64,000 nucleotides of DNA from an uncultured Rhodopila sp. (lineage in GTDB: Bacteria > Pseudomonadota > Alphaproteobacteria > Acetobacterales > Acetobacteraceae), in assembly GCF_903915725.1 (NCBI RefSeq), contig NZ_CAIWTY010000107.1:1-64000 (forward strand), read 5' to 3'. Under the pieces are notes generated by a model. That model was given only the letters and a program-made list of their open reading frames with translations, made no database searches and was not told the origin of the DNA. This document shows, piece after piece, positions 32,169 to 50,600 of the stretch; position 1 is the first letter of the stretch, and each line of letters starts with the position of its first letter. The translations under genes were made by a program, and so were the position numbers.

Positions 32169-33562
32169 GCCAGCGGCACGTTGTTCACGGTGACCGCGCC
32201 GTTGGCGTAGTTGATGTCCCAGACCAGGCTGTCGCCCTGCGGTTTCGCCATGCCCTTGGCCAGGTACATCATGGGAAGCATCTGCATCGCCTGCGGGTTG
32301 CCTTGCAGGGTCGCCATCATGCCATCCAGGCCGCGAGCGGTCAGGTGGACGCTGTAGCCGATGGAATTGCCCGGTAGCGGCAGAACCTTGGCGGAACCCT
32401 GGACCGTCAGCGGGCCGGTCTCAATTGCCAGGCTTTCAACGCCGACACGCGCCTGCGGGTCGTTCAGCAGCGCCATGGCACTGGCTTGCAGCGCGGCGGT
32501 TTCGGTCTTGTCGGCGGTGGCTTCACGCAGCCATTGCATCAGCGCCTCGCTGCGCACACCGGAGACCGCGGGGCGGATCGCCACCCGGTGCGGCATCAGC
32601 GCGGCATAGTCAGGCGGTACCATGTTGGCCGACGGGTCCGCGACGTCGATGTCGAGATGGGCGTTCACCCGGCCGCCGCGGGAGTCTCCGGCGAGGCCGA
32701 GCCGGACATTGGCGACTTCGACCTTGCTGGTGCCGGCAGCCTCGAAATGCACGCCCTGGATGGTTTCGTCGATGTCGAAGCGGGTCAGCAGCGCACCGAA
32801 ATCGTCGATCATCGCGTGCAACCGCTCGCGCGCGGCCGGCGACAGGGTCAGGCTTGCTGTTGGTGCGGCAGGCGGCCGGTTCTGGAGAGTGGTGCGGAGG
32901 TGCTCGGCGCGGGTGCGGTCGAGGCCCTCGACGTCGTAGCGGATGGCGGCGGAGCGCATCGACAGCCTGAAGGCGTCCGATGGCTTGTCGCCGGCCCCGG
33001 TGATCAGCCAGTTGGTCAGCGCGCCCAGCACGTGCGCGTTCAGGCGTCCGTGGCCGTCGCCGGATAGCGTGCCGTCCGTGCTGTATTGCTCGATGGTCTG
33101 GTCGGTGTGCTGCGGGGCGTTTTCGGTGCGAAGGGTGATCTTGCCGAGTTGCGCCTTGAACGGGGACGGGGTGGCCAGGGTGGTGTCGACCTTGCCATGG
33201 AAGCTCTGCTGGCCGATGGCGAAAGTCAGTATTCCCGGGGCGGCGGCGGCCTGGCCGGGCGTGTTGATGACGCCCGCTTGCGGCAGGGTGAGGGCGGTGA
33301 TGTCCCAGATGCCGGTTCCGACCGGCCGGGCGGTAGCCTCGACCGCAGCGTCCGGCGGTTCGGCCAGCCCGGGGAGCGGGACGCGCACGCGATAGAGGTC
33401 GCCGTCATGCGCCACCCGGGGCGGCGGGTCGCTTGGGGCCAGCAGTCCGCCGCTGATAAGCGACAATGCGTCAAGCAGGCTGGCTTCGGGGGGCTGTGCC
33501 CGGGCGGCGAGGGGGATGAGGAGCAGGGCCGCGGCGAGGCGGGGTGTGCGTGACGGCTGCAT
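32147..33562 (-). CDS. Periplasmic DUF2125-like protein
   Basis: A 471-residue protein with a signal peptide (L-A-A-A-L-L-L-I-P-L-A-A-R-A). The mature part is rich in beta-strands, with repeated D-x-x-G-x-x-V patterns and a C-terminal block reading G-D-S-L-V-W-D-I-N-Y-A-N-G-A-V-T-V-N-N-V-P-L. This resembles the DUF2125 family of alphaproteobacteria and also the DUF945/YdgA proteins. The function is unknown and an envelope role is inferred. An AGAGG ribosome-binding site supports the start. It stands alone on its strand. Confidence 0.65.
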   Translation of the reverse strand: MQPSRTPRLAAALLLIPLAARAQPPEASLLDALSLISGGLLAPSDPPPRVAHDGDLYRVRVPLPGLAEPPDAAVEATARPVGTGIWDITALTLPQAGVINTPGQAAAAPGILTFAIGQQSFHGKVDTTLATPSPFKAQLGKITLRTENAPQHTDQTIEQYSTDGTLSGDGHGRLNAHVLGALTNWLITGAGDKPSDAFRLSMRSAAIRYDVEGLDRTRAEHLRTTLQNRPPAAPTASLTLSPAARERLHAMIDDFGALLTRFDIDETIQGVHFEAAGTSKVEVANVRLGLAGDSRGGRVNAHLDIDVADPSANMVPPDYAALMPHRVAIRPAVSGVRSEALMQWLREATADKTETAALQASAMALLNDPQARVGVESLAIETGPLTVQGSAKVLPLPGNSIGYSVHLTARGLDGMMATLQGNPQAMQMLPMMYLAKGMAKPQGDSLVWDINYANGAVTVNNVPLAQSPAKR

Positions 33563-44816: not shown

Positions 44817-45371
44817 GTTATCCGGGCTGGGTGCAGGGCCGCGGTATATGGAAGGCTGGCCCTCATGCGCTGAAAACCCTGTGCGGCGCATAATTTATTA
44901 ATCGGGGTCCGCCAACCGTCCGGCGTTCGTGTTTACCTGCGCGTTTTAAGCGCAGAGCCGACCAGCGGCGGCCGCCGGCACCGCGGTGACGGAAAATGAT
45001 GTCGGCGTTGCTGCAGACGTCATGGTGGCCGAAGGGCCACCATCCACGCCTTACGGTGATGACGCGAGCCAAGGCGTGGATGGCGGGCGACCGAGCACGC
45101 GAGGGAGGGCTGCGCCCGCCATGACGTCCAGCGGCACGTGCCGCGCCGGGCATTTGCATGGTAGAACGCTGAGATTATGAGATGGCAGAGAAGTATTCTT
45201 GCGCCACCTTGCGGCAACGTTTCAATTGGCGGAAGATCGCCACGGCTGTGCCGAGGCGCACGACTCTTCTCTGCGATCTCAAAATTTCCGTGTTCTCCGC
45301 GCATAATGCGAATCCTAAGCCGGCACCGGCGGTGCCGGTATTACCGGATCTGCCAGCGCGGTACGCGCTGT
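44817..45371. other. Intergenic region with a composite repeat
   Basis: A 555-bp gap between convergent genes. Bases 45019-45127 form a BIME-like repeat. The stretch 45170-45371 has several short frames on both strands, none with recognisable family character. A GGCACCG/CGGTGCC hairpin at about 45318-45336 may help terminate the DUF4130 gene. Confidence 0.5.
45019..45127. repeat. Composite REP/BIME-like element
   Basis: CGTCATGGTGGCC-loop-GGCCACCATCCACGCCTT, a 20-bp spacer, then AAGGCGTGGATGGCGGGC-loop-GCCCGCCATGACG. Same mirror-image plan as the element at 18060-18140, with the outer GTCATGG/CCATGAC and inner ATCCACGCCTT/AAGGCGTGGAT conserved and the stems and loops changed. Confidence 0.75.
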
Positions 45372-46142
45372 TTATCGCGGCTGGCGCCCGATCATCCCGT
45401 CTGTTCGACTGCCGGCATTGCTGAGAAGATCCCGGATGCTGTCTGCCTCCGGCAAATCCCGCCGGAAGCGCTTCGGCATGTGACTGTCGAGTAATTTTGC
45501 ATTTGCCCGCGCCGGATTGAACGTTGCGCAGTAATACCGCTTCCACCAATCCTCCACATCATCCGCCGGCGGTGCCGCCGATCGGCTTAGACCCGGTGCG
45601 TATCGAACGGCCCGGCGATCCCAGTGCACCGACAGGTCGGGCGTCAGAACGGCAAACCGCAGACTGGCGAAGCGGTCGATGAAAAACGGAGTGACCCGGC
45701 GGAGTATTCGGTGCTGCGGTTCGTACCAGGCGACCGAGCATGGACCGTCTTCAGCTTCGACGATACGAAACCGGACGAATGCGGTCATCCTGTGCCGATC
45801 GCGCCGGACCGAGGCTGCCATCCGCTGGAGCCGGTGCACCAGCGTATCCGACGGTTGATCCATCAGCGTTCGCTCCCCGGCCACGAGACGCCAGAGCAGC
45901 TGATACAGCAGCGCCCAACGCGACTCATCGCGATGACAGGCAACCGCTTGGGCAAGCTCAACGAAGGCCCGCGGCACCGCGGCAATCCGTTCCGCGTCAG
46001 GCGGCACGTCCTGAAACAGCGCCGCATCCGGACAATCCGTCCAAGTAACGTCTGCGGGATCTATTCTTGCCGCCAGCAGCCTGCGTGCCGCCGAGCGAAA
46101 CGCTCCGAGATCATCAGGCGGATCGATGATGATGGAATACAT
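45372..46142 (-). CDS. DUF4130-family putative DNA repair protein (TIGR03915 type)
   Basis: A 256-residue protein. It begins M-Y-S-I-I-I-D-P-P-D-D-L-G-A-F-R-S-A-A-R and contains Q-A-V-A-C-H-R-D-E-S-R-W-A-L-L-Y-Q-L-L-W-R-L, H-R-M-T-A-F-V-R-F-R, then A-W-Y-E-P-Q-H-R-I-L and W-D-R-R-A. These are features of the DUF4130 family (TIGR03915), which always travels with the radical SAM protein encoded upstream, and in other bacteria is fused to a uracil-DNA-glycosylase-like domain. The start overlaps the upstream stop by one base (TGATG). The biochemical role is undetermined; DNA modification or repair is proposed for the pair. Confidence 0.88.
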   Translation of the reverse strand: MYSIIIDPPDDLGAFRSAARRLLAARIDPADVTWTDCPDAALFQDVPPDAERIAAVPRAFVELAQAVACHRDESRWALLYQLLWRLVAGERTLMDQPSDTLVHRLQRMAASVRRDRHRMTAFVRFRIVEAEDGPCSVAWYEPQHRILRRVTPFFIDRFASLRFAVLTPDLSVHWDRRAVRYAPGLSRSAAPPADDVEDWWKRYYCATFNPARANAKLLDSHMPKRFRRDLPEADSIRDLLSNAGSRTDGMIGRQPR

Positions 46143-47371
46143 CAGCCGAACAGCGTCGGTTGCCGTACCCGCGGCGCAACCACACTTCGCAAGGCCGACC
46201 GGTCGAGCAGCCGAGCCGGATGGTGATCGGCCGTAACAATAAACGGCAGCAGCCGCCGGAACGATCCCGCCAGGCGGCGGATGTCATCCAACCTCAGCCG
46301 GCAATGAAGTCTCGCGCTCAAAACACGATCGACCGAGCGCACCCCGAGGCCGGGAACCCGCAGCAGGCTCTCGCGCTCCGCGGCGTTCACATCGACCGGG
46401 AACCGGTCGCGGTTGCGCAGCGCCCAGGCGAGTTTCGGATCGAGCTCCGGGTCCAGCATGCCGTCCGTGCAGCCGAACAGGATCTCGGCAGCGCTGAAGC
46501 CATAGAACCGCATCAACCAATCGGCCTGGTACAACCGGTTTTCACGCACCAACGGCGCCGGCCGCGCCGGCAACAGCGTGCTGGCCTCAGGGATCGGACT
46601 GAACGCCGAGTAATAGATCCGTTTCAGCCGATACGTCCCGTACAAGCCCGAAGCCGTCGCCAGCACGGTGGAATCGCTGCTGCTGTCGGCCCCGACGATC
46701 AGTTGCGTGCTCTGCCCCGCGGGCGAAAACCGCGGTCCCCGTCCATCGGTCTTCGCACCGGCGATTTTCACGCTGAGATCCCGCATCGTCGCATGGATCG
46801 TCGCGGTTCGTTTCTCCGGCGCGAAACGCCGCAACGACTCCTCCGTCGGCAGCTCGATATTGATCGACAGCCGATCGGCGTAGAGCCCGGCCTCGCGGAT
46901 CAGGTCCGGGGAGGCTTCGGGAATCGACTTCAGATGAATATAGCCGCGGAATGCATGCTCGGTGCGAAGTGTCCGCGCGACCCGGACAAGCTCTTCCATC
47001 GTGTAGTCGGGCGAGCGGATGATGCCGGACGACAGGAACAATCCCTCGATGTAGTTACGTTTGTAAAACTCCAGCGTCAGGTCGACAACTTCCCGCACGG
47101 TAAAGCGGGCGCGCCGGACGTTGGAGGAGCGGCGGTTGATGCAGTAGGCGCACTCGTAAAAGCAGGCGTTGGTCAGCAGGATCTTCAGCAGCGACACGCA
47201 GCGGCCATCCGGCGTGTAGGAATGGCAAATTCCGTTGCCGGTGCTCGACCCGATGCCGCCGCTGCTGCGCGAGTTGCGCCGCTCACCCCCGGAGGACGCA
47301 CAGGACGCATCGTATTTCGCGGCGTCGGCGAGGATTTCGAGTTTGTCGGCAACCGATAGGGCCTTGGTCAT
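46142..47371 (-). CDS. Putative DNA modification/repair radical SAM protein (TIGR03916 type)
   Basis: A 409-residue radical SAM enzyme. The [4Fe-4S] cysteines are in N-A-C-F-Y-E-C-A-Y-C, preceded by G-R-C-V-S-L-L-K. Early blocks such as K-L-E-I-L-A-D-A-A-K-Y-D-A-S-C and G-I-C-H-S-Y-T-P-D-G are typical of this family. The C-terminal region holds a helix-hairpin-helix-like L-L-R-V-P-G-L-G-V-R-S-V-D-R, suggesting nucleic-acid binding, and the last residues Q-P-T-L-F-G resemble a sliding-clamp-binding motif. It is the first gene of the operon with DUF4130. A TTGACA promoter embedded with a LexA-type box lies immediately upstream and no ribosome-binding site is present, so the mRNA may be leaderless. 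Confidence 0.9.
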   Translation of the reverse strand: MTKALSVADKLEILADAAKYDASCASSGGERRNSRSSGGIGSSTGNGICHSYTPDGRCVSLLKILLTNACFYECAYCINRRSSNVRRARFTVREVVDLTLEFYKRNYIEGLFLSSGIIRSPDYTMEELVRVARTLRTEHAFRGYIHLKSIPEASPDLIREAGLYADRLSINIELPTEESLRRFAPEKRTATIHATMRDLSVKIAGAKTDGRGPRFSPAGQSTQLIVGADSSSDSTVLATASGLYGTYRLKRIYYSAFSPIPEASTLLPARPAPLVRENRLYQADWLMRFYGFSAAEILFGCTDGMLDPELDPKLAWALRNRDRFPVDVNAAERESLLRVPGLGVRSVDRVLSARLHCRLRLDDIRRLAGSFRRLLPFIVTADHHPARLLDRSALRSVVAPRVRQPTLFG

Positions 47372-47406
47372 GTTCTTTTTATGTTCTCATACCGCACGCT
47401 TGTCAA
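47372..47406 (-). promoter_or_regulatory. Predicted sigma-70 promoter overlapping a LexA (SOS) box
   Basis: On the minus strand, TTGACA (47406-47401), a 17-bp spacer and CATAAA (47383-47378) form a promoter. GAAC-ATAAAAA-GAAC (47386-47372) is an exact match to the alphaproteobacterial LexA motif (GAAC-N7-GAAC) and covers the -10 box. The predicted transcription start falls on the A of the ATG at 47371. Confidence 0.7.
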
Positions 47407-47633
47407 TGCGTCCGGCCGCGCCCCGTCTTGCCCTGCAACGCGTCGATCCGTTTCGATGCCTCAGCCTTGGATAGGTTCGGATCGAACGCCTCGCCGGCCT
47501 CCTCACACAGAGTCTTCAAGTATGACGCCTGCGCTCCGGTCATCGACTCCGCCCCGGTCGTCCACTCATTCGGGTCTTTCTCCGCATTCGACGGAAGGGG
47601 AGAACCAGTGTTGCTTTTCGGATCAGTGCTCAT
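47403..47633 (-). CDS. DUF3072 domain protein
   Basis: A 76-residue protein. The core E-S-M-T-G-A-Q-A-S-Y-L-K-T-L-C-E-E-A-G-E and L-S-K-A-E-A-S-K-R-I-D-A-L-Q matches the short DUF3072 family found in many bacteria, function unknown. An acidic, Asn/Ser-rich head precedes it and a basic tail follows. It lies just upstream of the radical SAM gene on the same strand, with the predicted -35 box of that gene overlapping its stop codon. Confidence 0.8.
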   Translation of the reverse strand: MSTDPKSNTGSPLPSNAEKDPNEWTTGAESMTGAQASYLKTLCEEAGEAFDPNLSKAEASKRIDALQGKTGRGRTH

Positions 47634-47677
47634 CCCGGCTCAACGCCGCCGATCGCGATTTGTTCCAGGCTGGGCGG

Positions 47678-50600
47678 TCAATATTCGAACTGGTACATCA
47701 GGCCCACGCTGGCGGCATCCTCGCTGCTCGCGCTGCCGGTGGCGGAACTCGATCCCGATGCTCCGGCCGTCGCTTCCAGCTTCAGGCCCTTTGCCAGATC
47801 GATCTGCACCGTCGCCTGAGTCCCATTCCCCGAAGCGCTCTGCTGCGCCCCGACATAGACGCCGCGCGCGATATACCGCCCCGCTTGCAAGGTCGGATTG
47901 CCCGCCGCATCGCTGCCGACGGTCAGGCGATCCAGGCCCAGCGACGTCCGGATGCTGTCCAACGGATCGAACGTCCCGGTCGCGCCCGACAGCGAGGCCA
48001 GCGCCGCCGCGATCTGCGCCATCTGCAACGGGCTCAGCTTCGACGTGGTGGTGCCAAACAAAAGCTGAGCCAGGATCTCGTCCTGCGGCATCTCCGGCAC
48101 GCTCGACAGCGTAATCTTCGGGTCGCTCGCACTGCCGCTGACCGTCAATTTCGCCACGATCGTCGCCGTCGTCGATGTCGCCACGAAATGCAACGACGGA
48201 TCGGCTATCCCCCCGCCGCTGAAATCGATCGTTCCTTCCGTGAAATTCAGGGTCGTCCCGATAACGCTCAGCGTGCCCCGCCGCAGATGCAGCCCGCCAT
48301 TCGGGATCGGATTACTGACCGTGCCGCCGAAATGAATATTCCCGCCGAGTTCCGCGTCCAGTCCCCTGCCGCGGATGAACACCTGCTCCGGCGCATCTAG
48401 TGTCACATTCAGCGCGATCGTCGATTGCGGCGCCGGCGGGGCAGGGGGCGGAGGCGGCGCATTGGCGTTGCGCACCGGCAGCACCGCGATGCTCGGCGGC
48501 AGCTTGTCGGGGATGCGGATATCGGCGCGGCGGACGTGCAAAGTGCCACCGGCCTGGAGGTCGCCTTTAACCTCGCCCTGCACTGTCAGGTTGGCGTCGA
48601 TCAGCGCTGTAATCAGGTCACTCGACAGCGGCCGGGCGTTGTCGGCGGTGAAATGCAGGTCGACCGGCATTTGGCCCGCCAGGCCGATCGTTCCGCTGCC
48701 GCCCAGCGTGCCTGGTCCGGCCTTGCCGGTGAAGCTGGACAGCCGGATCGTGTCGCCGGTCGCCTGCACCGTCGCTGCCAGGTCTGAGACATGCGCGCCG
48801 AGTGCGTAGTCCGCCACATCGCCGTTGCGCAATGTGGCGGTGCCGTTGGCCAGCGGCGCGGCGGTCGTGCCGGTCACCTCGGCGTTCAGGCTGACCTGGC
48901 CGCGCGCCCGCCGCCCCTGCGCCAACAGCAGCGGATCGAGCATCTTCAGATCGACCAGCCCGTCCGCTTTCAGGTCCAGCGCGCCGCTGCTGGACAAAGG
49001 CGCCGTGCCGGTCACCGTGATATGCGACGGCCCCGCGGTCAGCCGCGTGTCGATCCGGGCGGATTTCCCCATCAGCGTCGCATTGGCGGCCAGATTCGCC
49101 GGCGGCAGGGCCTGTCCCGGCCCCTGGCGCAGATGCACGCGATCCGCTGTGACCTTGATGGTTCCCTCGGGCTCGGCCGCGGTTCCGGTCAGGCGCACAT
49201 CCGCCGCGAGCACCCCATCCGCCGCCAGCGACGGGTCCGCGATGGCAGCTACATTGGCCGAAAGATTGCGCAGGGTGGCGGTCAAATCGAGCTTGCTGCC
49301 GGCGCTGCCCGACACGTCCAGCACCGCCTGCTGGAAGCCGAGCCGCAGGCGATCCATGGAAACGCCGTCGGCAAAACCAATCCGCGCGGGCGAGAGCAGC
49401 CGCAGCACCTGGTCTTTCCAGCTTGCTTCCAACCGCGCCAGGGCCAGCGTCTTGTCCGTCACGTTCAGCGTGCCCGCGGTGTTGACCTTCGCGGCCCCCC
49501 CGGCCAGCGCCGGAGCATTGGCCGCAACCGTTAAAGCCACCGCTTCCTGCGGTCCCTTCGCCGTGACGCGCGCCGAAATCGCCTTGGCGCTGCCGGCTGA
49601 CACGCCGTCCGCGGTCAGAACGCCGTCCACCGACGGATGCCCGTTCGGATCGGTTACCGTCGCATTCAGCACGGCCTTGCCGACGGAAGCGGTTCCCGGC
49701 AGCGACGCGTCCTTCACCGTCAACGCCAGCCGTGCCGCCTGATCATCCGAATCCAGCGTCGCCTGCGCCTGACCGGCAATCGGTTTGCCGATCAAAGGCT
49801 CCAGATCCGCCAGGCGGCCGAGATCGACGCGCAACTTGCCGGCCGGGATGACCGCCGGCGGCGTCAGGCTGACCGCTCCATTCGCCTGCAACGACTTCCA
49901 TGATGCGTGGTCGATATCGACTTTCGTCACGCCCGCGGCCTGATCCGCGGTCAACGCCAGCGACAGCGGCGCGTTCAGCAGCGTGCCGTCCGCTTTGACC
50001 TCGGCATGCGGCGACCCGGGTAGCCCGGTCGCGTCCACATGCGCATCGAGATGCCCCGGCTGGCTGCCCTTCGCCGCGACATCCGCGCCGATATCCGCCT
50101 GCACGGCCAGCGCATCGAGAGGGCCGCCCGCATGACCCTTGGCATCCACCTTGCCCGACAAACTCGGCTGCACCGCCGCCAGATCGGCCAGCGCCAGCGC
50201 CCAGTTCAGGTCGAGCTTCTTGTCGGTCAGGCCGCCCTGCGCCGACACATCCAGCGCCTTGCCGTTCACCGTCAGGTGCGACAGAGTCGCGTCCTGCCCG
50301 TGCATCGATCCGGCGACATCGATCCGGCAATTATCCCCGATCAGTGCGGGCACCGGGGCCATCCCTCCGGTCACCGACAGGCGCCCTTTCGCCGAGGCGG
50401 TGGTCGTGTCGCCATTGACCTCGGCCTGCACGTCCAAATCGGTGCTGCCCCGAAGGTCCGTCCCGCCCGCCGCCGCCAGCGGAGCGAGATCCGGCAGCGC
50501 CAAGTGCGCCTTCAAAGTCTGGATGCCGGCCGTCTGCGCCGAACCCTCCGCCGATAGCAGCGGATGCCTCACCCCGAACGTCACCGGCCGATCGGCTGCG

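Follow-up and report, generated by a model that had tools for sequence, protein, structure and literature searches.

The window, that is, the whole 64-kb stretch of DNA analysed here, carries on its minus strand a two-gene operon preceded by a third, small gene. The first gene of the operon (46142–47371) encodes a 409-amino acid radical SAM protein (rSAM) of family TIGR03916 (rSAM_link_UDG; 552.1 bits against a cut-off of 343.5). This protein features a CxxxCxxC motif (CFYECAYC) and, as judged by eye, a helix-hairpin-helix-like C-terminal stretch. The second gene (45372–46142) encodes a 256-amino acid DUF4130 protein (TIGR03915; 182.3 bits against a cut-off of 112.25) and overlaps the first in the sequence TGATG, where one A serves both the rSAM stop codon and the DUF4130 ATG. 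Both proteins score above the curated cut-offs of their families, which confirms the radical SAM/DUF4130 assignment made in an earlier note on this DNA. That note had overlooked the gene upstream, which lies on the same strand (47403–47633), ends 31 nt before the rSAM ATG and encodes a 76-amino acid DUF3072 protein (PF11272; E = 9e-29).

The promoter and operator region of the operon spans positions 47406–47371 (minus strand). The −35 element, TTGACA (47406–47401), was read from the sequence and overlaps the DUF3072 stop codon, the TGA of which (47405–47403) lies within it. It is followed by a 17-nt spacer (47400–47384) and the −10 element CATAAA (47383–47378), an arrangement that the earlier note had given correctly to the base. 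CATAAA agrees with TATAAT at four of six positions and is a weak −10 element; a stricter promoter scan, in which a T was required at the last −10 position, found no promoter in 45200–47800. An alternative −10 element is TAAAAA (47381–47376), with a spacer of 19 nt. The −10 element lies inside a predicted LexA operator, the exact direct repeat GAAC-N7-GAAC (GAACATAAAAAGAAC; 47386–47372, minus strand), which is conserved at orthologues and whose position over the −10 element agrees with the earlier reading. The known LexA operator of Alphaproteobacteria is GTTC-N7-GTTC. The box consensus of the orthologues, GAACATATAATGAAC, places a −10 sequence TATAAT inside the LexA repeat. In the window, CATAAA is followed by AAGAAC and then by the rSAM ATG at 47371, 7 nt 3′ of the last base of CATAAA, and the operator thus abuts the start codon. 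There is no clear ribosome-binding site before this ATG, as had been noted before. The predicted transcription start is the A of the ATG (47371, minus strand), 35 nt from the T with which TTGACA begins.

The motif by itself proves nothing. Exact copies of GAAC-N7-GAAC in the 64-kb window number two, with 1.77 expected and at least two in 57 of 100 shuffles, and this count is at chance level; the question therefore had to be decided by comparison. The boxes of 148 orthologues, without that of the window itself, were used to build a weight matrix. With this matrix, the operator scores 26.7 bits and is the best site of the window, whereas the next site reaches 13.9 bits and the best site across 20 simulated 64-kb sequences reaches 15.6 bits. 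The other exact copy in the window, GAACCTTGGCGGAAC (32383–32397, plus strand), falls outside its eight best matrix scores.

For the comparison, orthologous loci were collected from two sources. Of the 299 host-family genomes drawn, 118 match TIGR03916 (111 above the cut-off); the draw included six further genomes of the host genus, all of them without a match. Besides the host, 117 family genomes have a match, and 110 of these each contributed one locus to the family sample (30 + 80 loci); the remaining seven, with split, partial or weak matches, were left out. The named sample consists of the best 80 of 586 TIGR03916 loci in the GTDB collection and is therefore biased towards close relatives; it spans Acetobacteraceae, Azospirillum, Methylobacterium, Mesorhizobium, Sphingomonadales, Brevundimonas, Paracoccus and others. 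Including the window, this gave 191 loci, or 186 non-redundant ones after five duplicates had been dropped, of which 11 gammaproteobacterial loci were set apart to leave 175 from Alphaproteobacteria. Here, one locus titled only as Proteobacteria (L108) was counted as alphaproteobacterial, other family genomes were assigned by kinship, and a fragment with a mis-set start (L222) was counted among the misses. Start codons of the orthologues were set by script from homology and not from annotation.

An exact box is found within −150 to +15 of the rSAM start in 149 of the 175 non-redundant alphaproteobacterial loci. The earlier note had proposed a search for LexA boxes upstream of TIGR03916 homologues as a check, and by this measure the box has not been lost. 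When all 186 loci are divided into bins, exact boxes occur in 147 of 185 at −100 to +5 and in 2 of 183 at −200 to −100, while seven control bins, two further upstream (0/183 each) and five coding (0/186 each), are empty. Of the 26 alphaproteobacterial misses, 14 reach 10 bits or more at their best site, above the control maximum of 7.67 bits (one coding stretch per locus); 12 of the 175 loci show no site above that maximum. In a near relative (L275) the box is unchanged. A chance match, with the operon lying outside LexA control, would account for the number of exact copies in the window, which equals expectation, but it is rejected as highly improbable by the conservation of the box at orthologues, by the empty control bins and by the lead of 12.8 bits that the operator holds over every other site of the window.

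The host genome contains the regulatory genes that such control would need. A lexA gene is present (TIGR00498 above cut-off) and has an exact box 63 nt before its start, measured from the nearest edge, and recA is present with an exact box 143 nt before its start, although these two boxes score just 11.8 and 11.6 bits by the orthologue matrix. Genome-wide, GAAC-N7-GAAC occurs 221 times on both strands, compared with 87 occurrences of the reversed pattern. Together with the 149 conserved boxes, the boxed lexA and recA genes support the earlier proposal that LexA controls the operon.

We confidently assign 47406–47371 as an SOS promoter that is repressed by LexA and drives the presumed two-gene repair operon of rSAM (TIGR03916) and DUF4130, probably through a leaderless mRNA. 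This assignment builds on the sequence, the gene families, the conservation of the box, lexA and recA with their boxes, and the spacing described below. LexA bound to GAAC-N7-GAAC would cover the −10 element, reach the start point and exclude RNA polymerase. Upon damage, RecA on single-stranded DNA would induce self-cleavage of LexA and so derepression, and the sigma-70 promoter TTGACA-N17-CATAAA would then fire, with the start probably at the A of the ATG. The leaderless rSAM mRNA would be translated without a ribosome-binding site, and translation of DUF4130 would be coupled to that of rSAM at the TGATG overlap. The arrangement resembles the alphaproteobacterial LexA regulon in its direct-repeat operator over the −10 element, in the boxed lexA and recA genes and in its conservation at orthologues. 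In contrast to that regulon, the predicted operator of the window abuts the start codon.

The spacing of promoter, box and start codon was analysed in the 131 loci with a GAAC-oriented box, after exclusion of the 18 of 149 boxes that are GTTC-oriented. The first in-frame start lies 0–5 nt past the box in 56 of the 131 loci (0–2 nt in 40). A TTG is found 15–23 nt before the box in 77 of the 131 and in 32 of the 56 short-leader loci, the other 24 having no TTG at −23 to −15. Half of these 32 loci (16, window included) show a TTG-to-start distance of exactly 35 nt. They do so via three registers of leader length and TTG position, (0, −20) in three loci including the window, (2, −18) in nine and (4, −16) in four, three of the last four coming from one genus. 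Not one of 20,000 permutations of the TTG positions matched the 35-nt excess, in a test that ignores relatedness. Among the 56 short-leader loci, nine have a Shine-Dalgarno-like word ahead of the start, close to the coding background of 12.7%; such words are found inside the predicted leader in 7 of 17 loci with leaders of 10–14 nt, in 10 of 37 with 15–25 nt and in 3 of 8 with longer ones.

A leaderless transcript requires just such a geometry, with the −35 element starting 35 nt ahead of the A of the ATG; this counts as support, not as proof. The window combines this distance with the lack of a ribosome-binding site. The start at the A of the ATG, as proposed in the earlier note, thereby gains comparative support from the 16 of 32 short-leader loci, while the start itself is still a prediction. 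Leaderless mRNAs occur in Alphaproteobacteria, for instance in Caulobacter. The window resembles these in having no Shine-Dalgarno sequence and a promoter set for +1 at the A of the ATG, and differs in the LexA operator added between −35 element and ATG, and in that its start is predicted. No statement on such a geometry was found in the literature among the matches listed, and the placing of a LexA operator between the −35 element and the initiation codon of a probably leaderless mRNA is one of the new, smaller points of this work.

In 62 of the 131 GAAC-oriented loci the leader is at least 10 nt long, and leaderlessness is therefore lineage-dependent. These leaders also lend some weight to an alternative for the window, in which an operon under LexA control has a leadered mRNA. 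Transcription would then start a few nucleotides away or arrive mainly as read-through from DUF3072, and the ATG would be reached by 70S initiation or by coupling. Use of TAAAAA as the −10 element would shift the start by 2 nt, and DUF3072 ends on the same strand only 31 nt before the rSAM ATG. However, a TTG-to-ATG distance fixed at 35 nt in half of the short-leader loci with a TTG argues for a start at the ATG itself, and we consider a leadered mRNA a possible but less probable reading.

The upstream gene bears on this question, because DUF3072 could add read-through transcription into rSAM. It is preceded by GGAAC-N16-CGTT (47642–47666, minus strand), which fits the consensus of general-stress (EcfG) promoters. 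The fit at 47666–47642 is kept in four aligned copies from the genus, in which GGAAC, GATC and CGTT are identical, a conservation that favours a leadered mRNA. Profiles for PhyR and NepR (PF18557, PF22233) gave no match in the genome, and both were detected in a Caulobacter control. The motif contains a LexA-like sequence, GAACAAATCGCGATC (47665–47651), which lies 18 nt before DUF3072, deviates from the repeat at one position and is the second-best matrix site of the window. DUF3072 is found in 67 of the 299 family genomes, and 27 of the 30 best-scoring loci (L235–L264) carry an exact GAAC-N7-GAAC upstream of it, with a consensus near GAACGTTTAGGGAAC. Across this box, AAC-N16-CGTT is present in 23 of the 27 loci and the full GGAAC-N16-CGTT in one, so that the site appears arranged as if common to LexA and an ECF sigma factor. 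The window site has GATC as its second half, and LexA control of DUF3072 is therefore not claimed. A literature search found no paper on DUF3072.

The history of the locus argues for the rSAM promoter as an element of its own. A tamB homologue is present in 17 of 29 genomes of the genus, that of the window included, and DUF3072 and rSAM lie behind it in the window genome and in two others (G310 and G306). L063, titled Acetobacteraceae, comes from G306, as an identical stretch shows, and lies on the same contig as L287; G306 and L063 are therefore one case. In a fourth genome, that of a close relative (G325; L276/L292), DUF3072 is kept and a 29-amino acid remnant of rSAM is left between tamB and a glyoxalase II gene; the two genes can therefore separate, which speaks against a leadered mRNA that depends on DUF3072. 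The other 13 tamB genomes show no DUF3072 or rSAM match within 1.1–1.5 kb behind tamB. In G310 the box is unchanged, at an identity to the window of 92% for rSAM, 86% for DUF3072 and 83% for DUF4130. In G306, where rSAM is 75% identical, TTGAC, box and abutting ATG stand in the same register although the gap between DUF3072 and rSAM is 105 nt, compared with 31 nt in the window. That TTGACA overlaps the DUF3072 stop codon is therefore a local feature, whereas the promoter forms a unit with operator and ATG.

A profile search found no uracil-DNA glycosylase (UDG) domain in the DUF4130 protein of the window. At another locus of the same genome (L294; G000:C61:69561-70124), a DUF4130-like part is fused to a UdgX-type glycosylase (TIGR03914, 289.5 bits; TIGR03915, 92.9 bits and below cut-off). 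This part shares 36% identity over 218 amino acids with the DUF4130 protein of the window, and no LexA-like site lies upstream of L294 (best −0.3 bits). Closed DUF4130 open reading frames in the orthologue loci are at least 330 amino acids long in 86 of 103 cases, the length that a fusion would need; the 17 shorter ones, among them that of the window, are probably without a glycosylase domain. The fusion, the lengths of the orthologues and the predicted LexA control make it unlikely that rSAM and DUF4130 are not DNA-repair enzymes but produce or recycle something else that the cell requires after damage. Such a role is favoured by the lack of a solved relative by sequence for either protein, and by the literature found on DUF4130 function, which consists of prediction only. 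That prediction (PMC3765255) is of a mutagenesis-related enzyme beside radical-SAM photolyase-like proteins and itself points to repair. A search with PADLOC gave no anti-phage defence match for the rSAM, DUF4130 and DUF3072 proteins.

LexA control of the operon is well supported by these comparisons, and it is not new. We take COG4277 to be the same family as TIGR03916. An SOS-regulated UDG-based system has been reported in Verrucomicrobia and Alphaproteobacteria, as stated in a passage of PMC8565304 that cites da Rocha 2008 and Erill 2016. The earlier note had read LexA control as a physiological clue to the two families; control of this kind of operon was already in print for Alphaproteobacteria in that source, and the window therefore adds one more case to a known kind. 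The same source describes a two-gene UDG operon, COG1573-COG4277, predicted to be SOS-regulated in Bacteroidetes. The window shares with this operon the radical SAM partner plus DUF4130 and the LexA control, predicted in the window, whereas its second gene lacks a UDG domain and a boxless DUF4130-UdgX fusion is found elsewhere in the genome. PMC8565304 also mentions SplB-like radical SAM proteins in SOS regulons. These resemble the rSAM protein in being radical SAM proteins under (in our case predicted) LexA control, but SplB belongs to COG1533 and the window protein to TIGR03916. Passages of PMC7739468 and PMC9380542 also name radical SAM proteins. PMC12700426 gives 47 SOS genes for Caulobacter, and the passages considered from this paper, from PMC1839093 and from PMC6120978 do not name an rSAM–DUF4130 operon. 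Conservation of the promoter over many genera ties two widespread families, for which we found no established chemistry, to the DNA-damage response, and a damage assay is therefore the right place to seek their activity.

The 11 gammaproteobacterial orthologues set apart above all lack the alphaproteobacterial box. The known xanthomonad LexA box, TTAG-N6-TACTA, and the E. coli-type LexA box were both sought and rejected as candidates, neither being present within 170 nt upstream of these orthologues (1 nt was available for L116). Instead, a palindrome, GTCTCA-N5-TGAGAC, ends exactly 22 nt before the rSAM start at seven of the 11 loci (L076, L097, L099, L106, L114, L126 and L131), all of them from Xanthomonas, Stenotrophomonas, Luteimonas or Pseudoxanthomonas. 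It is absent at L072, L081 and L096, and L116 offers just 1 nt of upstream sequence. The genomes of six of the seven loci contain 12 exact sites (L223–L234), whereas the genome of L096 and the reversed pattern gave none. By inspection, rSAM accounts for six of these sites, a DEAH helicase gene for four and uvrA for two; helicase and UvrA were each profile-checked on one locus, the helicase being cut by the locus end and scoring below the TIGR03817 cut-off.

The palindrome also occurs in 41 of 60 family genomes around that of L097, with none for the reversed control. Among 30 loci taken one each from 30 of the 41 genomes (L300–L329), 11 lie at the helicase, five at rSAM, four at mraZ and one at dnaB; recA, RmuC, an AAA ATPase, Csy1 (CRISPR) and DUF763 account for one each, and four are unassigned. 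The sites look like a regulon centred on DNA repair, into which Csy1, DUF763 and the unassigned sites fit less obviously. A palindrome of this kind in a lineage without the alphaproteobacterial box suggests that the radical SAM–DUF4130 operon is part of the damage response. This second, unexplained putative operator before the same operon in Xanthomonadaceae, which marks recA, uvrA and other DNA-related genes, is the other new, smaller point. Tentatively, and with somewhat less than even confidence, we propose that radical SAM–DUF4130 forms a core module of the DNA-damage response and that its master switch has been exchanged between lineages. In Alphaproteobacteria this switch would be LexA, often with a leaderless mRNA, the −35 element being fixed at 35 nt from the ATG. 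Its counterpart in Xanthomonadaceae would be an undescribed regulator that binds GTCTCA-N5-TGAGAC, 22 nt before the rSAM start, and acts also over recA, uvrA, rmuC, dnaB, the mraZ cell-division cluster and the DEAH helicase. Palindromes with one mismatch were also observed (L266, L267, L269 and L270): three genomes have one ∼200 nt before mraZ, and one genome has it near dnaB, mraZ and dnaB being profile-checked on L266 and L270.
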